A stretch of 64,000 nucleotides of DNA from Chthonomonadaceae bacterium (GTDB lineage: Bacteria; Armatimonadota; Fimbriimonadia; Fimbriimonadales; Fimbriimonadaceae). The stretch spans positions 1,178,001 through 1,242,000 of the forward strand of contig CP054189.1 in the NCBI GenBank assembly GCA_015709495.1. The letters run 5' to 3'. The translations under genes and the position numbers were made by a program. The notes beneath the pieces were generated by a model. It made no database searches. It was given only the letters and a program-made list of their open reading frames with translations, and was not told the DNA's origin. Below, in pieces: positions 27,261 to 36,839 of this stretch. Numbering within the stretch: the stretch's first letter is position 1; each line of letters opens with the position of its first letter.

Positions 27261-28427
27261 CTACTCCTGCGCCGAGGCGGTCGGTGGCCCGGCATGGGCG
27301 CCCGGGGGAGGCGTTTCGAGAATCCCCTTCAGCGTCATGACTCCGATCATCAGGATCACCGCGATCCCCGCCACAATGATCCACTGGCGACGCGCGGGGT
27401 GTCGCGAGGGCGACCGGTCGAGCCAAGGCAGGAACAGCATCCCAATGCTGACAAGCCCTGGCACGATGATCGTAGCGACGACTTCGTAGCCGGCGGGCAT
27501 GATCTTCAGAAGCTCATAGAGTCCCAGGAAGTACCACTCGGGCCGTGGGGAGAAGTCCGTCCCCGTAGGATCGGCGATGGCCTCCAAAGCAGGAGGAAAC
27601 GCCAGCGCCAAGTAGGCGACGATTCCCATCCCGCCCAAGACGACCACAGCGTCTTTGAAGAGTTGAACCGGGTAAAAAGGCACGGGCTTCCCCCGTTGCG
27701 GCAAGACGGGCCCGGCGATATGGTGACGCCGCACGAGATATAGGTGCAGCCCCGTACACACGATCAGCAGCGCGGGCAAGAGCATCACGTGGATCGCATA
27801 GAACCTCGTGAGGGTGAGCGCGCCGACCTCTTCGCCGCCCCGAACCAGCGCCATGAGTTGCTCGCCGATCCCCGGGACCGTCCCGGCGATGCGCGTGCCG
27901 ACCACCGTAGCCCAGTACGCCTTCTGGTCCCACGGCAAGAGGTAGCCAGTGAACGAGAAGCCCAGAATCAGGTTGAAGATGATGCATCCGACGAGCCACG
28001 TAAGCTCCCGCGGCTTCTTGTAGGAGCCCCAGAAGAACACCCGCAGGATGTGCAGTACGGTTACGATGACGATGGCTGTCGAGCCCCAAACGTGGAGCCC
28101 GCGCACGAACGAACCGAGCGGCACCTCGTAGGTGATGTGCTTGACGCTGGCGTGGGCGTCTTGGGTCGATGGCGAATAGAACATCGCCAATGCAAACCCC
28201 GTTACAAACTGAAACAGAAGCAGCGTGAGAAGCAGGTTCCCCAGCGTCTGCCACCACCCTACGCCGGGAGGCATCGGCTCATCGAGATTCTTGCGGACGA
28301 AGCCCCACCAGCCCAAACGAAGCTCCATCCAGTCGCCGAAACTGGGACGATCCCGGCGAAGCTCTTCCTCCACCGGGAGTTCTTCGGTTCGCGTTGTGGG
28401 GCGTTCGGGAGTGAGGCTATCCGGCAT
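27261..28427 (-). CDS. cytochrome b of a bc/b6f-type quinol complex
   Basis: The 388-residue protein carries both the b6-like N-terminal and subunit-IV-like C-terminal halves. Heme ligand pairs are H112/H126 and H213/H228, the latter with the 14-residue spacing of cytochrome b6. The quinol-site motif PEWY lies in RPEWYFLGLYELLK. About eight membrane helices are predicted. It oxidises menaquinol together with the Rieske protein encoded just upstream. It is the last gene of the operon beginning with the molybdenum subunit at 33557. No separate cytochrome c1 gene is present; the diheme domains of the neighbouring fusion may accept its electrons. Confidence 0.94.
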   Translation of the reverse strand: MPDSLTPERPTTRTEELPVEEELRRDRPSFGDWMELRLGWWGFVRKNLDEPMPPGVGWWQTLGNLLLTLLLFQFVTGFALAMFYSPSTQDAHASVKHITYEVPLGSFVRGLHVWGSTAIVIVTVLHILRVFFWGSYKKPRELTWLVGCIIFNLILGFSFTGYLLPWDQKAYWATVVGTRIAGTVPGIGEQLMALVRGGEEVGALTLTRFYAIHVMLLPALLIVCTGLHLYLVRRHHIAGPVLPQRGKPVPFYPVQLFKDAVVVLGGMGIVAYLALAFPPALEAIADPTGTDFSPRPEWYFLGLYELLKIMPAGYEVVATIIVPGLVSIGMLFLPWLDRSPSRHPARRQWIIVAGIAVILMIGVMTLKGILETPPPGAHAGPPTASAQE

Positions 28428-28430
28428 GGT

Positions 28431-28940
28431 CTACACCTTCTTTTGAATCCAGATCTTCCCGTCTTCGACTTTGACGGGATACGTGATCAAGGGTTTGGGC
28501 GGAGGTCCGGAAACCACGTTCCCGTCCGCATCGAACACGCCTCCGTGGCAAGGGCAAAGGTAACGCTCCTTGCCCTCGACCCAGGTTACTCGGCAACCTA
28601 AGTGCGTGCAGGTAGGGTCGAATGCGACGACGTCTTCGCCCGAGCGCTTCAGGAAAACCGTGTACTTGCGGTCGACTACGGCGAACCCATCTCGGATTCT
28701 CAGGATGTACGAGGTCTCCCTCGTTTGGCCCGGACCCAGTTCCGCGTCGTCCAGAATCGGCACCCAGTTGCTCTTCGATCGCCGCATCACGGGGGAGCCA
28801 ATGAACCCGAGCACGGGGCCGACGACGACGGCGCCCACCACCAGGTTGATGGCCGCCACCAGCCAGCCGAGAACGGTGCGTCGGGCCGGTTTCGGCGGGT
28901 CGCTGGCGGTGTTGTTTGCTTGTTTGCGGTTCGTCTTCAT
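28431..28940 (-). CDS. Rieske 2Fe-2S protein
   Basis: The 169-residue product has the cluster motifs CTHLGC (C111, H113) and CPCHGG (C129, H132), with C116 and C131 positioned for the stabilising disulfide. The N-terminus carries ARRTVLGWL then a hydrophobic segment (residues 22-48), a Tat signal-anchor. It moves electrons from quinol at cytochrome b to a cytochrome c. The gene ends 3 nt before cytochrome b and starts 28 nt after the fused Fe-S/cytochrome c/membrane protein, so it is in the same operon. Confidence 0.94.
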   Translation of the reverse strand: MKTNRKQANNTASDPPKPARRTVLGWLVAAINLVVGAVVVGPVLGFIGSPVMRRSKSNWVPILDDAELGPGQTRETSYILRIRDGFAVVDRKYTVFLKRSGEDVVAFDPTCTHLGCRVTWVEGKERYLCPCHGGVFDADGNVVSGPPPKPLITYPVKVEDGKIWIQKKV

Positions 28941-28968: not shown

Positions 28969-31053
28969 TCAGGGGTAATAGCGGAGATTCACGGGTCCAT
29001 CGAAATTGGGGTCGAGAGTCTTCATCAGGTCCTCGGCGATGCGCTGCGACTTGTGGTGCCGCCCCGGCGAAGGCTCGCGAGAAAAGCCCAGCTCGACGCC
29101 GCTCTTGACGATCTCTTCGCACAATCGGGTGAGAGCGACCATGGTCGGGACGATCCAGACGTGCATGAATCGGGTGAACGGCGCGGTCGCGAGCAGAAGA
29201 AGTACCGACGCCAAGTGCCACAGATAGATCGGCTGAACCCAACCGGTCAGACCCGTGCGCTTCATCACGACGACGAGGAACCCACTCAGCAGCGTGTTGA
29301 GCAGGAGGTTGAGGAAAAGGAAGTCGCGGCCTTGGGTCACGCCGTTGTCGATGTACTCGTCGGTCCTGTACCGAACCATCACAGCGAACACGCCCGCGAG
29401 CGCGGCGACTCCTGAAAGGATCGGCAAGAGCTTGAGCGGATCGAACAGCGGCATCTCTGCCCGCGTCGGATTGAATATCTGAATCAAGACATCCGCGAGC
29501 ATCAGGCCGACGAAGCCATAGAGGATCAATCCGTGGAGAAACCACCGCATCTTGTTCCTACGCCAGAGCGAAGCCACCAAGAACCCGTCCACGATCAGCG
29601 ACCAAGTGGCGATGCCGAACGCTCGCAGTACCCCGAACTTCTTGACCGCGCTCCAAAGCTGCTTGGGGGCCGACAGTCGAATCCAATAGAGCCAAACCTT
29701 CGTGCCGAAAACGAAAGCGAACAGCGTCACGAACAGGAACACGATCGCGACGTTCTTTGTCGAAAGGAACTGCCCGACCTTGAAGGCGAGGGGGATCAGA
29801 TTCTCGTCCCAAGGCTTCTGCTTGACCTCTTGGTAGACCTGAGCAACCTGTTCGTCGGAGAGTTCCGACTCCTTAGTGGCGGGCATCATGCCCTTTCCTT
29901 TGCGAACGATCTGGTGAAACTCTTCTTCGGTCAGTTTCGTTTGGGCGATCGGAGGTCCCAGCCCCCCCATAGCCGACAGGCCGTGACACCCCATGCAACT
30001 CGATGTCGCGTACAACTCGTCGGGAGGTGGGGCCTTGGCGATCTCGATGTCGGCGGCCCCCAGTTCCTCGAAGATTAGTTCCATGTCTTCGTCGGAGAGG
30101 TCGGAGTCCGGAGTCGGAGGCATCGCGCCCTTGCCCTCTCGAACGAGCTGTGCGAACTCCCACTTGTCGAGGGCCAAAGGAACGATAGCAGGGCCGGGGT
30201 CGCCCTTCCCAGCGGGCCCGTGACAACTCGCGCACATCGAACTCTCGTAGGCGTGCATTTCGCCCTCATGATCCTGAGCCTGAACCGAGGACACCAGCGA
30301 GGCAAGCCCGATCCCAAGAAGCGCAAGGACCGTAGCAAGCTTCCCGCCTGATCTCGATCCTCGAGTTGGCAGGGGTTCGGCGCGCTCGGGGGCGGCTCTT
30401 CCGCCCAGAGTCGCAGAATCCTGCGAAGCCATCGTGCCGAGATAACACCCTGCCGGTTTCGTCCCCGCTTGGGGGAGCAACGGGAAGGGATAGCGCTTCG
30501 TTTGCACCTTTTCCTGTTCGATATAGGTTGAAATCTCGCTGGTGGGGTCGTCGAGGTCGCCGAAGATTCTCGCGTGGGTCGGGCACGCCACCACACAGGC
30601 CGGATCGAGCCCTTCGTCCACCCGCTGCACGCAGTACGTACACTTCCGGGCGACGTTGGGCTGAAGCCGCGGCTTGACGAAGTCCCTCTCGTAAGGCTCG
30701 TCTTCGTTCAAGTACCAGGCGTCCTTTTCTTGAAGGATGATGTTGCCGTAGGGGCAGGACGACACGCAAGCGCCAGTACCTCGACACCTGTCCTGATCGA
30801 TCAGCACGACGCCGTCTTGCCTCTTAAAGATCGCCTTATTGGGGCAGGCCTTGAGGCAGGGCGGGTTCTCGCAGTGGTAACAGAGCATCGGCAGGTACAC
30901 GCGCTTCGTGTGCGGATACTTGCCGGCTTCGATGTTCAGGACCCGCGCGAAGAAGACGTCGACGGGCGTGCCGTTCTCTTGTTTGCAGGCTACCGTGCAG
31001 GCATCGCATCCGATGCACCGCGTCAGGTCGATGAGCATCGCGAGGCGGGCCAT
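28969..31053 (-). CDS. fused NarH/DmsB-like Fe-S, diheme cytochrome c and NarI-like membrane subunit
   Basis: One uninterrupted 694-residue frame joins three parts. Residues 1-170 are a four-cluster ferredoxin subunit: C13/16/19/23, C58/61/66/70, C90/T93/C96/C100 and C138/141/153/157; the Cys-to-Thr change at 93 predicts a 3Fe-4S cluster, as in NarH. A hydrophobic helix (239-256, ending VQA) leads to two cytochrome c domains with CASCH (274-278) and CMGCH (353-357) and probable Met ligands in GAMPP and GMMPA. From about 430 to 665 come five or six helices resembling the cytochrome b subunit of nitrate reductases. The start shares one base with the stop of the upstream molybdenum subunit. It should carry electrons between quinol, hemes c and the catalytic subunit. 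Fusion is directly seen; electron path is inferred. Confidence 0.88.
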   Translation of the reverse strand: MARLAMLIDLTRCIGCDACTVACKQENGTPVDVFFARVLNIEAGKYPHTKRVYLPMLCYHCENPPCLKACPNKAIFKRQDGVVLIDQDRCRGTGACVSSCPYGNIILQEKDAWYLNEDEPYERDFVKPRLQPNVARKCTYCVQRVDEGLDPACVVACPTHARIFGDLDDPTSEISTYIEQEKVQTKRYPFPLLPQAGTKPAGCYLGTMASQDSATLGGRAAPERAEPLPTRGSRSGGKLATVLALLGIGLASLVSSVQAQDHEGEMHAYESSMCASCHGPAGKGDPGPAIVPLALDKWEFAQLVREGKGAMPPTPDSDLSDEDMELIFEELGAADIEIAKAPPPDELYATSSCMGCHGLSAMGGLGPPIAQTKLTEEEFHQIVRKGKGMMPATKESELSDEQVAQVYQEVKQKPWDENLIPLAFKVGQFLSTKNVAIVFLFVTLFAFVFGTKVWLYWIRLSAPKQLWSAVKKFGVLRAFGIATWSLIVDGFLVASLWRRNKMRWFLHGLILYGFVGLMLADVLIQIFNPTRAEMPLFDPLKLLPILSGVAALAGVFAVMVRYRTDEYIDNGVTQGRDFLFLNLLLNTLLSGFLVVVMKRTGLTGWVQPIYLWHLASVLLLLATAPFTRFMHVWIVPTMVALTRLCEEIVKSGVELGFSREPSPGRHHKSQRIAEDLMKTLDPNFDGPVNLRYYP

Positions 31054-33557
31054 CAGTCGTTGTTCCTTGTTGCGGTTCCGATCGGGCGTCTCTCGGAATC
31101 GAGCGCCCTATCCTTTGAGTTCACCTTCCGAACGTCTACGCGCGTGTCTTTCCAGTGTTGGCCGGGAGCATAGACCGCCGGGAGGTAGTAGTTCTCGTGC
31201 GTGGGTTTGATCTTCTGGTGGGTGTGGACGCTATGGTACTTTCCCTCGGCAAGGTACCGATGCCACCATGCGTGGTCGGTGCAGAGAACCCCCGGCTTGA
31301 TTCCTTCCGTCACGAGCGCCCAGAGCCGGTAGGAGCCGTTGTTGTTAAACACCTCGACTTCGTCCCCGTCGTGAATCCCTCTCGCCGCCGCGTCGATCGG
31401 GTGGATTTCGATCACGGGCTTGCGGTTGAGGTTGAGCAACACGGGGTTGTTGCTGTGGGTCGAGTGAACGCGCCACTTGCTGTGCGGAGTCATGATGCAG
31501 AACGGCAGTTTCTGATCCTCGTCGGGCAGGTGAGAGAACCCAGCCTTGTAGACGGGTAGGTTTTCTCCCAACTTCGTGAACGCGTCTTCTTCCTTGTAGA
31601 ACTCCATGCGCCCGGTCTTGAGGAATTCGCGTTGCGACCCTTCGGGGAACGGGTAGGCCCGCGGAGGGAACAGCTTGAAGTCGTGGAACTGCTCGTCGCA
31701 TCCCACCTCAGGGTCGTGTACCTTCAGCCGAACCGGCCCCTCCTTCAACTGCTCGATGGTGATCCCCTCGACCTCCTTGCCTCCGCCGTCGAGCATCTTC
31801 TGAATGGCGGTCCACTCGTCGACGTCGAAGTACTTCAGCAGCGTGGGGTCAACCCGCCTCACGAGCTCGCGCGCGATCCAGAACTCCGTGCGGGAGTTGT
31901 ATTGAGGCTTCACGACCTCGTTTTGAATCTGCAGGTAGGGGTGGCAAGAAGTTCCTACCAACTCCACCTTTTCCCAAAAGGTCGGGCAGGGGAGCACGAC
32001 GTCCGCGTACTCGCAGGTCGGGCTCATCGAGAAGTCCTGCACCACGAACAGGTCGAGGGCGTCGATCGAGTCCTTCAGAGGCGCGGACCACTCAGTAACC
32101 AAGGGGTTGGCGTGGGAGCAGAAGAGCGCCTTGAATCCGTCTTTCGGGTACTTGATCTTGGGGTTGATCGTTTCGGTCGGACCCCCCAGGACGAAGTAGT
32201 GCATCGGCACGTTGTTGGGGCGTTTGCCTTCGGGGAACCACCATGGCGAGACATCGAGCCTGAAGTGGTGCTGGCCCGAATAGATCGAGACGGACTCTCC
32301 CGGCTTGCCGTGCGCCCCTGCGAGGGCCGAGAACAGCAGGATCGCTCGAATGGTGAGGTCGCCGTGCAGCCGGTGGTTGATCCCCATGCCGATAATGATC
32401 GAACTGGGTCGTTGGGTGGCGTAATCGCGAGCCAGCTTACGAATCGTCGTCGCTGGGATGTCACTGATCGTCTCGACGTATTCGGGCCGGTACTCTTCGC
32501 GCGAAACGACGTCCTCAATCAACTGAAACACCGGAGTGATCTCAACGCTCTTGCCTTCGATCGTGGCCTGTCGCGTTCCGCGGAAAGCGGGCCGAAGGTC
32601 GTCGGGCAGTTTTAGGGTGTCCTTGGGCAGAACGAAGAACCCGTCTTTTCCTTCATCCCACACGACGAACTCGTCGCTCCCACCCAAACCTACATCGGAA
32701 GCTCTCAATCGCTGGCCGTTGTCGCTTCGGACGAGGGTCGCGCAGTCGGTGAAGGTCTTGAGGAAGTCCCAATCCACCAGGTCCTCGTTGATCAGCACTT
32801 GGCACATCGAAAGCGCGAGCGCTCCGTCGGTGCCGGGGTTGATCGGCAGCCAGTAGTCGGCGCCCTTGGCGGTCTGGCTGCACCGCGGGTCGATGCAGTA
32901 AATCTGGCAGTTGTTCCGTTGCTTGGCGTATTGCGTGAGAAACTTCGCGTCGGGGATGCGGGTCTGGAAGACGTTGCTGGACCACAAGATCGCGGTCTTG
33001 GCGTGTCCCCAACTCTTGGTCTCGCATTCCACGCAGTCGATCCCGAAGGTGTGCGTGAATCCCATCGAGATGTCGCCGTTGAAGTCATACGCGGTCGCGA
33101 ACGACATTCCGAGCAGCGCCGCCATCCGCACTTGCGCGCCCTTTTGAACGTATCCCGTGCCGACGACTTGGTTGAAGAGCAGCATGTGGTCGGCGCCGTG
33201 ATCCCGAATGATCCGCTTCATGTGCTCGGCGATGTGGTCGAGCGCCTCGTCCCACGTCGCCTCTTTCCACTTGCCTTCGCCTCGCGCGCCCTGACGAATG
33301 AGCGGTGTCTTGATGCGGTCAGGTCCGTAGATGAGGTGGGTCATCGACATCCCGCGCAGGCATCCTCGAGGGTTGTACTCCTGGCAGGGGTAGTCGGCCG
33401 CAGGCTTGAGGTCGACGATCACATCGTCGACGACGGTCGCAAGCCAACCGCACGCCCCCGTGCAATTGGGGCTGTCCGTGGTGCGAACGACCTTCTGGTT
33501 CTCGCGGGAGGGCGCCGCTTGTTTCGTGCGGCCCGGAACTGCATGTCGAGTTGCCAT
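31053..33557 (-). CDS. type II DMSO-reductase family molybdenum subunit (nitrate reductase-like)
   Basis: The 834-residue protein matches the NarG branch: NCTGACGW and YNPRGCLRG supply C32, C36 and C66 of the FS0 cluster, with D28 where NarG has a histidine. YDFNGDISMG places D162 at the molybdenum-ligand position, and WSSNVFQTRIPDAKF follows as in NarG. The C-terminal THSNNPVLLNLNRKPVIEIH belongs to the molybdopterin-binding domain. There is no twin-arginine signal, so it is probably cytoplasmic. It binds Mo-bis-MGD and reduces an oxyanion; nitrate is inferred from the divergent NarK gene. No NarJ-type chaperone is adjacent. Length is shorter than NarG (about 1,200 aa). Confidence 0.88.
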   Translation of the reverse strand: MATRHAVPGRTKQAAPSRENQKVVRTTDSPNCTGACGWLATVVDDVIVDLKPAADYPCQEYNPRGCLRGMSMTHLIYGPDRIKTPLIRQGARGEGKWKEATWDEALDHIAEHMKRIIRDHGADHMLLFNQVVGTGYVQKGAQVRMAALLGMSFATAYDFNGDISMGFTHTFGIDCVECETKSWGHAKTAILWSSNVFQTRIPDAKFLTQYAKQRNNCQIYCIDPRCSQTAKGADYWLPINPGTDGALALSMCQVLINEDLVDWDFLKTFTDCATLVRSDNGQRLRASDVGLGGSDEFVVWDEGKDGFFVLPKDTLKLPDDLRPAFRGTRQATIEGKSVEITPVFQLIEDVVSREEYRPEYVETISDIPATTIRKLARDYATQRPSSIIIGMGINHRLHGDLTIRAILLFSALAGAHGKPGESVSIYSGQHHFRLDVSPWWFPEGKRPNNVPMHYFVLGGPTETINPKIKYPKDGFKALFCSHANPLVTEWSAPLKDSIDALDLFVVQDFSMSPTCEYADVVLPCPTFWEKVELVGTSCHPYLQIQNEVVKPQYNSRTEFWIARELVRRVDPTLLKYFDVDEWTAIQKMLDGGGKEVEGITIEQLKEGPVRLKVHDPEVGCDEQFHDFKLFPPRAYPFPEGSQREFLKTGRMEFYKEEDAFTKLGENLPVYKAGFSHLPDEDQKLPFCIMTPHSKWRVHSTHSNNPVLLNLNRKPVIEIHPIDAAARGIHDGDEVEVFNNNGSYRLWALVTEGIKPGVLCTDHAWWHRYLAEGKYHSVHTHQKIKPTHENYYLPAVYAPGQHWKDTRVDVRKVNSKDRALDSERRPIGTATRNND

Positions 33558-33813: not shown

Positions 33814-35307
33814 GTGAGCCAACGAGCCGTCGCCAACCGCGTATTGTTCCTCAACACACTCGCCTTTGCCGTTTGCTTCGGAGTGTGGACCCTCTATGGC
33901 GTCCTCGTCACGTTTATCGCGGACTCGGGGGTGATGACCTTTGATCGAGCGCAAATGGGGTGGCTCCTAGGCGTTCCAATCCTGACTGGCGCGGTCATGC
34001 GCTTGCCCGTGGGGATGCTCTGCGCGAGATACGGCGGAAAACCTGTGTACATCGGGGTCATGCTCGTCTCTGCGGTGGCTTTGTTCTTGACGAGCTTTGC
34101 TAGTACCTACGCCCAGTTGCTTTGGGGTGGATTCGCGTTTGGGATAGCAGGCGCTTCGTTCGCGGTGGGAATCGCGTACTCGTCGATCTGGTTTCCAAGG
34201 GAGAGCCAAGGCACAGCGCTCGGCATTTTTGGGATGGGCAACGTGGGTACGGCAGCCACGAGCTTCGCCGCGCCTCTCCTTCTCCAGTCGTTCACCAACA
34301 AGGGTGCGAATCCGGAGGCTTGGCGTCAGCTCCCCCAACTTTATGCGGCGATCACCGTCGCAATGGTGGTCGTATTCGCGCTCTTCACGGTGCATCGGAA
34401 GGACGAAACTGCGGCGCAGAAGACCTGGGGCGGCATGCTCGCGCCCCTCCGCGATGTGCGGGTCTGGCGCTTTGGACTCTATTACTTCTTGGTTTTTGGC
34501 GGGTTCGTCGCCCTGGCTCAGTGGTTGATCCCCTACTACCTCAACGTGTACGACATGCCCTTGGCGACGGCGGGGCTGATGGCCGCGATGTTCAGCTTGC
34601 CTTCGGGGCTCAGTCGATCTCTCGGCGGATGGATCGCGGATCGCATCGGGGCTCGGACCACCATGTACTGGGTGCTAAGTTCGTGCGCCGTGTTCTTCCT
34701 CTTGCTGGTCGCCCCTCGGATGGAGATTCGATCGCCAGGCGAAGGCGTGCTTGCCGAGCGGGCGGGAAAGATCACGTCGGCTACTCCCGACCGGATCACT
34801 TTGGAGACGAACACAGGTACGCTCGAATATCCCCTCAAGACGTTGCCGAACTCGCGGCTCGAATCTGAAGACGGCGCCCTGATTTTCCCCACGTTCACCA
34901 GTTGGCAGGAACCGATCGTGAAGGCGGGAGACGAAGTCAAGAAGCGGACCCTCTTGGCGCGCGGGACGACCGAGGTGTTCTTTCAGGCCAACGTGTGGGT
35001 GTTTTCCACTATCGTGCTGTTCGCAGGCATCATGATGGGTGTGGGGATGGCCGCGGTCTATCGTCACATCCCCGACTATTTTCCGCACGATGTTGGCGTT
35101 GTGGGAGGCATCGTCGGAGTGCTCGGTGGCCTTGGCGGGTTTTTCTTTCCGATCATTTTCGGTTATCTCCTCAAGTGGACCGGCCTTTGGACGACGTGCT
35201 GGCTGTTCCTGATGGCGATCGCGCTGATTTGTCTGATCTGGATGCACATCGTGATCCTGCGAATGAGCAAGAACCTCAAGCCGGCGGGTCCCCTCGATCG
35301 GCATTGA
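33814..35307 (+). CDS. narK: NarK-type nitrate/nitrite transporter with inserted soluble domain
   Basis: The 497-residue MFS protein has the two nitrate signatures: GIFGMGNVGTAATSFAAPLL near 138-157 and GVVGGIVGVLGGLGGFFFPI near 428-447. R63 (AVMRLPVG) and R268 (LSRSLGGW) match the substrate-binding arginines of NarK. Unusually, about 90 hydrophilic residues (302-390) sit between two helices, with VKAGDEVKKRTLLARG resembling a biotinyl/lipoyl-type hammerhead. It should exchange nitrate and nitrite across the inner membrane. GTG 33814 has AGGAG about 12 nt upstream. It diverges from the nitrate-reductase-like operon. Confidence 0.9.
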   Translation: MSQRAVANRVLFLNTLAFAVCFGVWTLYGVLVTFIADSGVMTFDRAQMGWLLGVPILTGAVMRLPVGMLCARYGGKPVYIGVMLVSAVALFLTSFASTYAQLLWGGFAFGIAGASFAVGIAYSSIWFPRESQGTALGIFGMGNVGTAATSFAAPLLLQSFTNKGANPEAWRQLPQLYAAITVAMVVVFALFTVHRKDETAAQKTWGGMLAPLRDVRVWRFGLYYFLVFGGFVALAQWLIPYYLNVYDMPLATAGLMAAMFSLPSGLSRSLGGWIADRIGARTTMYWVLSSCAVFFLLLVAPRMEIRSPGEGVLAERAGKITSATPDRITLETNTGTLEYPLKTLPNSRLESEDGALIFPTFTSWQEPIVKAGDEVKKRTLLARGTTEVFFQANVWVFSTIVLFAGIMMGVGMAAVYRHIPDYFPHDVGVVGGIVGVLGGLGGFFFPIIFGYLLKWTGLWTTCWLFLMAIALICLIWMHIVILRMSKNLKPAGPLDRH

Positions 35308-36402: not shown

Positions 36403-36490
36403 GAAGGTAGGTTTCTCCTTGTCGGTCGATGATTGAGTGTGCGAAGCTTGCTTCTAACGTGCAAAGCACGAAGTGAGTTATGCGCATTGG

Positions 36491-36752
36491 GCAGGGGCCA
36501 TGCGAGACGCATGCGCTCCCGGGTCCGAGTCTCTGTCAGTGTTTTTGGGAGGGGCCATGCGAGACGCGTGCGTTCCTGGGGCCGAGTCTCTGTGGGCACA
36601 CTAGGCAGGGGCCATGCGAGACGCATGCGCTCCTGGGGCCGAGTCTCTGTCAGTGTTTTTGGGAGGGGCCATGCGAGACGCGTGCGCTCCCGGGGCCGAG
36701 TCTCTGTGGGCACACTAGGCAGGGGCCATGCGAGACGCATGCGTTCCTGGGG
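36491..36752. repeat. five tandem copies of a 57-bp repeat
   Basis: The core GGGGCCATGCGAGACGC begins at 36494, 36551, 36608, 36665 and 36722, exactly 57 bp apart. Units alternate between two variants (GACGCATGCG with a spacer ending in GTGTTTTTGGG, and GACGCGTGCG with a spacer GTGGGCACACTAGG), making a 114-bp higher-order repeat; the fifth copy is partial. Each core can fold as CATGCG-AGA-CGCATG or a wobble version. Because 57 is divisible by 3, open frames run through both strands, but they continue into a tRNA or overlap a real gene, so I treat the array as noncoding. Confidence 0.9.
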
Positions 36753-36765
36753 CTGAAGCAGAATC

Positions 36766-36839
36766 TGGCTGCCCGCCAAGGATTCGAACCTCGATTAACT
36801 GGGCCAGAACCAGTCGTCCTGCCATTAGACGAGCGGGCA
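36766..36839 (-). tRNA. tRNA-Gln (anticodon CTG)
   Basis: The minus strand folds as a complete cloverleaf: acceptor TGCCCGC/GCGGGCA, discriminator G, encoded CCA, anticodon arm ACTGG-TTCTGGC-CCAGT with CTG anticodon, and T-arm GAGG-TTCGAAT-CCTT. It abuts the 57-bp repeat array. Confidence 0.93.

Follow-up and report, generated by a model that had tools for sequence, protein, structure and literature searches.

In other nitrate reductases NarH, cytochrome c and NarI are separate proteins, as a preliminary description of this DNA pointed out and as we agree, and quinol-oxidising NarGHI enzymes and bc-fed periplasmic reductases are usually treated as separate designs. In the window (the whole stretch of 64,000 nucleotides that we analysed, from a bacterium of the Armatimonadota), one open reading frame joins an Fe-S domain, cytochrome c domains and a membrane cytochrome b domain, which raises the question of what such a chain does and whether its being one piece matters. 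We believe, with moderate confidence, that the frame encodes the electron-transfer part of a membrane-bound, cytoplasm-facing nitrate reductase that has a dedicated Rieske/cytochrome b quinol oxidase, and the operon hints at a complex in which nitrate reduction is linked to a quinol oxidase that pumps protons. More tentatively, and leaning slightly towards doubt, we propose a new class of energy-conserving nitrate reductase in which a Q-cycle oxidase and a cytoplasm-facing Mo enzyme form one complex bridged by a cytochrome c/b subunit, made in some lineages as a polyprotein with the Fe-S wire. The parts are of known kinds, and the combination and the fused precursor are undescribed as far as the open literature shows. 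Our searches (for the fusion and for Armatimonadota nitrate reductases) found no description of the operon, which is weak evidence of novelty given that most subscription papers fall outside the scope of such searches.

The frame had been described as a single run of 694 codons. This and its coordinates are borne out, to which the strand must be added: it is the minus strand, where an ATG at 31053 leads to a stop at 28969-28971 with no internal stops, and the plus strand of 28969-31053 has four stops. The four Fe-S motifs, two CxxCH sites and membrane domain noted earlier are all present in the one chain, both by motif and by Pfam (Fer4_11, 1.1e-23; Cytochrome_CBB3 in two stretches, 1.6e-27; Nitrate_red_gam, 1.7e-5). 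The features are collected in Table 1.

Table 1. Genes of the operon, domains of the fused protein and the neighbouring transporter, in window positions
Feature	Position	Strand	Basis
Catalytic subunit, 834 aa, Mo-bisMGD oxidoreductase, type II DMSO-reductase family	31053..33557	minus	
Fused Fe-S / cytochrome c / membrane cytochrome b protein, 694 aa	28969..31053	minus	reading frame, Pfam
Fe-S electron-transfer domain, residues 1-205, PsrB/ArrB/NarH superfamily	30439..31053	minus	structure-database matches
Variable linker, residues 206-234	30352..30438	minus	comparison with relatives
Internal signal peptide homologue, residues 235-259, candidate cleavage VQA/QD after 259	30277..30351	minus	
Cytochrome c domain 1, CASCH at residue 274, GKGAMPP Met	30046..30267	minus	
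Cytochrome c domain 2, CMGCH at residue 353, GKGMMPA Met, class I fold (1wve_C)	29806..30030	minus	
Membrane cytochrome b domain, residues 421-650, NarI/QmoC/EtfD-type fold, invariant H507, H613, H631	29104..29793	minus	
Conserved C-terminal tail, residues 651-694 (EPSPGRHHKS...RYYP), predicted cytoplasmic	28972..29103	minus	
Rieske [2Fe-2S] protein, 169 aa, twin-Arg N-terminus, both cluster motifs	28431..28940	minus	
bc-type cytochrome b, 388 aa, four His ligands, PEWY, no CxxCH	27261..28427	minus	
NarK-family MFS nitrate/nitrite transporter, divergent from operon	33814..35307	plus	

Most relatives have two genes where the window has one, as would be seen if a lost stop or a frameshift in assembly or sequencing had created the fusion. 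The test set beforehand was whether an independent assembly shows a stop codon or frameshift around 30430; another genome of the species (G159, a single contig) shows neither. Its fused gene is intact, 694 aa long and 98.99% identical. Of the codons that differ, 18 do so synonymously and 7 non-synonymously (dN/dS ~0.12), and three of the seven amino-acid differences fall in the linker. The fusion is also found in G001, G005, G015, G031, G044, G048, G068, L062, L066 and L068, and on the operon-protein tree, the root of which is unplaced, the fused or split state changes at least three times, as does the one- or two-heme state. Because the gene is intact in the second genome, with mostly synonymous differences, we reject an artefact, to which we attach next to no probability.

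The Fe-S domain has ArrB (6cz7_B, E 1.1e-42) and PsrB (2vpw_B, E 7e-40) as its best solved relatives and scores 78.6 bits against the narH model, below the cut-off of 524. Its four motifs are C13-C23, C58-C70, C90-C100 and C138/141/153/157. Motif III reads C90-R-G-T-G-A-C96-V-S-S-C100, with Thr93 at the second Cys position, and the relatives displayed are alike in this. In NarH, where the second Cys of this motif is also replaced, the fourth cluster is [3Fe-4S], and by analogy that of the fused protein is probably [3Fe-4S] as well. In the full-length AF2 model the Fe-S part is poor (pLDDT mostly <60), the membrane domain is mostly above 90, and the model from residue 346 on has a mean pLDDT of 75.

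The two cytochrome c domains are both class I, each with a later GKG[AM]MP Met, and are identical at 28 of 63 residues (44%); we take them to be a tandem, lineage-specific duplication. The two heme sites of the preliminary description are thus present and are an exception, as most relatives have one heme. Domain 2 is the conserved copy and domain 1 the extra one, and among the fused proteins examined only those of the window's species and of G031 carry two.

We looked for homologues in 61 related genomes and 29 named loci. Some lineages have the protein as a single chain, and most encode it in two genes lying side by side. Where it is split, the Fe-S gene stops shortly past the conserved tail of the Fe-S domain, and a textbook Sec signal peptide, typically ending in A-x-A/Q (the slash marks the predicted cut), stands at the start of the cytochrome gene. 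What had been noted as a membrane helix at about residues 235-259 turns out to be the homologue of this signal peptide. The hydrophobic segment and an A-x-A-like site before Q or N are retained in all ten fused proteins scanned (VQA/QD, AQA/QS, ARA/NE and ALA/QD, with small residues at -3 and -1). We rejected internal re-initiation as a source of a separate cytochrome: the window has no in-frame ATG, GTG or TTG just before the segment, so the chain must be made whole. Given the retained signal peptide, the fused precursor may be cut by signal peptidase after synthesis, with the candidate site after residue 259, and the working complex may then hold the same subunits as that of the two-gene relatives. 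The Bradyrhizobium FbcH precursor, from which cytochrome b and c1 are reportedly released by signal peptidase, is similar in that two respiratory subunits are made as one chain with the signal peptide of the cytochrome c internal. It differs in that other subunits are involved and that cleavage of the fused protein is a prediction from sequence. A search of the open literature for a paper on FbcH cleavage found none.

All members of the window's own clade on the operon-protein tree (the window, G001 and G015) are fused, and both states occur under one genus label (G015 fused, G164 split). The family offers repeated instances of subunits being joined or separated at a signal peptide. In another locus, from a low-coverage Armatimonadota MAG (L067, 6706-10056), a frame of 1116 codons joins most of the Mo subunit, the Fe-S domain, the cytochrome c and the membrane domain, which could reflect a more extensive fusion or a misassembly.

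The label "NarI-like" fits the membrane domain by fold; by sequence the domain is nearer to QmoC and TcuB. Its model matches NarI (1q16_C) with Z ~10.6 and EtfD with Z ~12, values that are suggestive given that this is a helical bundle. It scores 25.0 bits against Pfam PF02665, slightly above the cut-off of 22.9, and 17.2 bits against the narI model, which has a cut-off of 105.55. Among NCBIfam models, QmoC (7e-15) and TcuB outscore NarI (0.0035), and all of these matches are below the curated cut-offs. The domain therefore shares a fold with NarI and EtfD and a weak sequence similarity with QmoC and TcuB, and differs from all four in falling below each curated cut-off and in having three invariant His. 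An hmmsearch of profile A1 against the PDB returned repeat-protein noise and cytochromes c only.

H613 and H631 align with H187 and H205 of NarI, and H507 is on the second membrane helix. One bis-His heme in this domain is well supported. With three invariant His as against the four heme ligands of NarI, a second heme b would lack an invariant partner ligand, and the heme b count is the weakest point of the transmembrane path that we propose below. Residue 586 (29296-29298) is Asn in the window, whereas a membrane His is conserved at this position in most relatives: 21 of the 22 rows aligned have it, and it is absent from the window, G159, basal members and Bacillota. The Asn is not a sequencing error, since the second genome of the species has it too.

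The gene for the catalytic subunit lies just upstream, and its stop overlaps the start of the fused gene (TGATG). The locus had been called nar-like, which its context supports through NarK and the phylogeny of the catalytic subunit does not. The subunit scores 236.8 bits against TIGR01580 (NarG), far from the cut-off of 1084, and its best model, TIGR03479, is also below cut-off. On our tree it forms a clade of its own with Bacillota sequences, outside NarG and pNarG, a position to be read with caution given the long branch. The Asp of an "NGD" motif aligns with the Mo-ligand Asp of NarG in all members. The His position of the FS0 motif (H-x3-C-x3-C) is Asp in 13 of 13 members aligned, Bacillota included, where NarG, haloarchaeal NarG and ClrA have His.

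Because the subunit falls outside the NarG clade and its FS0 ligand differs, we base the substrate on NarK and context and not on clade: it is probably nitrate. The transporter keeps the nitrate-signature motifs of E. coli NarK (over the part of NarK available), and a NarK-type gene is near the operon in 11 of 21 loci. These conserved motifs beside many copies of the operon count against a different substrate, such as chlorate, perchlorate, selenate or another oxyanion, reduced by an unchanged electron path, and we found no chlorite dismutase in the window's own genome. We consider such a substrate improbable, and some observations do point to it: the best solved relative of the subunit (5e7o_A/4ydd_A, 1.3e-110) is an enzyme that we take to be the perchlorate reductase PcrA, a type II enzyme; a plasmid relative with 32% identity adjoins a chlorite-dismutase-family gene; and there is the separate clade. 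Apart from this, we noted that the NarK-type transporters share an insert of ~75 residues that E. coli NarK does not have; it lies ahead of the last membrane helices and, judged by eye, is probably beta-rich.

On which side of the membrane would the Mo enzyme work? By eye, we saw no Tat signal (RR plus a hydrophobic stretch) at the N-terminus of the catalytic subunit, and Tat-like N-termini in ClrA, haloarchaeal NarG, DmsA and the chlorite-dismutase-linked relative. The Fe-S part lacks an export signal and the Mo subunit lacks a Tat signal, so both are predicted to be cytoplasmic, with the c-hemes outside. The preliminary description had electrons crossing the membrane within one polypeptide. 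The crossing agrees with this predicted topology; the fusion is not required for it, because in most relatives two neighbouring genes serve the same purpose, and the chain may in any case be cut.

The order Mo, Fe-S, cytochrome c/b, Rieske and cytochrome b, in one orientation, is found in 19 of the 21 relatives fetched. All 21 have the last four genes, and the Mo gene was not seen in L035, which starts at a contig end, and in L031. We found the five-gene operon again in named Armatimonadota MAGs. The Rieske cluster motif and the PEWY of cytochrome b are kept in 32 of 32 loci tested, and in all of these cytochrome b is without CxxCH. We recognised no cytochrome c1 gene in the operon, where the fused protein is the sole carrier of c-heme. 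Because the Rieske/cytochrome b pair lacks cytochrome c1, the cytochrome c of the fused protein is the obvious acceptor. The Rieske gene is also the only one in its genome, which has ActB-like ACIII genes and one COX1 gene forming another branch. Since this is the only Rieske gene despite the ACIII genes, the Rieske/cytochrome b module appears dedicated to the Mo enzyme. A CRP-type regulator is near the operon in some loci.

Based on this arrangement, we infer the following path. Quinol would be oxidised at the Qo site of the Rieske/cytochrome b pair in a Q cycle, and the high-potential electron would pass to the outer cytochrome c domain or domains of the fused protein, substituting for the absent cytochrome c1. 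From there it would move to the heme or hemes b of the membrane domain, inward along the Fe-S chain and on to Mo. Nitrate would enter through the neighbouring NarK-type transporter and be reduced inside, and the inward electrons and the protons consumed inside would add an electrogenic step to the Q cycle. The signal peptide would export the cytochrome part, and signal peptidase may then cut the chain.

The quinol oxidation that the preliminary description assigned to the fused chain is one option only, given that the operon has a quinol oxidase of its own, the Rieske/cytochrome b pair without c1. In that option the membrane domain would oxidise quinol as NarI does, cytochrome c would be an outward side branch to periplasmic acceptors, comparable to Thermus NarC, and the Rieske and cytochrome b genes would be an ordinary bc complex that is a neighbour in the operon by chance. 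Three Desulfosporosinus/Peptococcaceae loci (L071-L073) speak for it. These are uncharacterised three-gene operons homologous to the operon core, with 51-53% identity in the Mo subunit, 57-61% in the Fe-S subunit and 32-35% in the membrane subunit. They differ in that the Fe-S and membrane subunits are separate and that the fetched DNA has no cytochrome c, Rieske or cytochrome b gene, and for this reason the membrane subunit is probably able to accept electrons from quinol. Thermus NarC has been proposed as such a branch (PMC7694296), and nrfHA in the window's own genome is a possible periplasmic acceptor. Against this, cytochrome c, Rieske and cytochrome b are conserved together in Armatimonadota, there is no separate c1, the operon's Rieske is the only one in the genome, and nrfA in the same genome is interrupted by a transposase gene. 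We regard direct quinol oxidation as a serious rival, perhaps the ancestral mode, and still as an unlikely account of this operon; electron entry from the Rieske/cytochrome b pair through cytochrome c is the reading we prefer. It fits the physiology in part, as the genome has nrfHA, though with nrfA interrupted.

The complex might also run in reverse, oxidising nitrite and sending electrons outward to cytochrome c like a Nitrobacter-type NXR. A cytoplasm-facing Mo enzyme, a membrane cytochrome b and an outer cytochrome c are indeed the Nitrobacter layout (PMC7694296), and the genome has a homologue of the anammox type of NxrA. This homologue is found in 6 of 61 relatives as against 22 of 61 for the operon, the dedicated Rieske/cytochrome b suits quinol-driven reduction better, and CRP-type regulators near several copies fit anaerobic use. 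We give nitrite oxidation by this complex very little credence. The NxrA-like enzyme does count against our preferred reading, a nitrate reductase fed by its own Rieske/cytochrome b pair, in another way, in that it could itself handle nitrate or nitrite. It is encoded at G000:C1:1694295-1697888 (L044, L088), is 1197 aa long with a Tat-like N-terminus and aligns along its whole length with Kuenenia nitrite oxidoreductase subunit A (7b04_B, 1706 bits). Behind its gene come NxrB-like, NarJ-like and ethylbenzene-dehydrogenase-like genes, and an ACIII-type ActB/NrfD cluster is beside them.

Several known systems share parts of this arrangement. In Streptomyces coelicolor, Nar1 co-purifies with bcc-aa3, and a proposed route takes electrons from QcrC to heme bD of NarI1 (PMC7931247). 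The shared design is a cytoplasmic-type nitrate reductase with a proposed feed from the cytochrome c of a bc complex through the b hemes of NarI. It differs in having separate operons, a canonical NarGHI and a bc complex shared with the oxidase, whereas the window has the bc genes and the cytochrome c inside the reductase operon. In Campylobacter jejuni, Qcr drives Nap, with bc-driven nitrate reduction demonstrated by gene deletion (PMC6195509). The haloarchaeal nar operons (L076-L078), in which narB encodes a Rieske protein and narC a cytochrome b beside narG and narH (PMC2483277), likewise group these two with a type II Mo enzyme and the Fe-S subunit that serves it. However, the haloarchaeal enzyme is described as outward-facing, the N-terminus is Tat-like in the three copies that we fetched, neither a NarI-like subunit nor a cytochrome c is annotated in the operon, and the enzyme belongs to a different clade; the operon also has its own TorD/NarJ gene, which the window's operon lacks. 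In Thermus NarCGHJI, an added diheme cytochrome c interacts with NarI (PMC7694296), but the proteins are separate, NarG and NarI are canonical, and the operon is described without Rieske or cytochrome b.

One operon of the Armatimonadota thus holds the genes for the kind of bc-fed, cytoplasm-facing nitrate reductase proposed in Streptomyces, which makes that proposal testable with bc genes that are not shared with an oxidase operon. The series from three genes to five genes with the split form and on to the fused form suggests how a simple reductase could gain a Q cycle.

The cytochrome/membrane part is present in 37 of 291 Armatimonadota genomes searched. Outside this phylum, the genome scan found it in one Acidobacteria-labelled MAG, one Methanoregulaceae-labelled one and distant Bacillota. 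The copy titled Methanoregulaceae archaeon (L056, JADZEW010000018.1) is a typical Armatimonadota operon, and this is probably a mislabelled or mixed bin. Members of the Armatimonadota have been reported in anammox reactors (PMC7358590, PMC6828613), where the conversion of nitrate to nitrite matters.

NirK was found in none of the 61 genomes. NrfA is present in 10 of 22 genomes with the operon and 6 of 39 others (Fisher p 0.016, kinship ignored). That fewer than half of the operon genomes have NrfA, and none has NirK, counts against our preferred reading. In the window's own genome nrfHA is at G000:C1:2467900-2471200 (L086), the gene that interrupts nrfA is an ISL3-family transposase gene, and other relatives have nrfA intact. 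Within the window, we also noted short in-frame repeats between two genes at 36433-36779, with units like GRGHARRMRSWGRVSVGTL and WEGPCETHALLGPSLCQCF in two frames.
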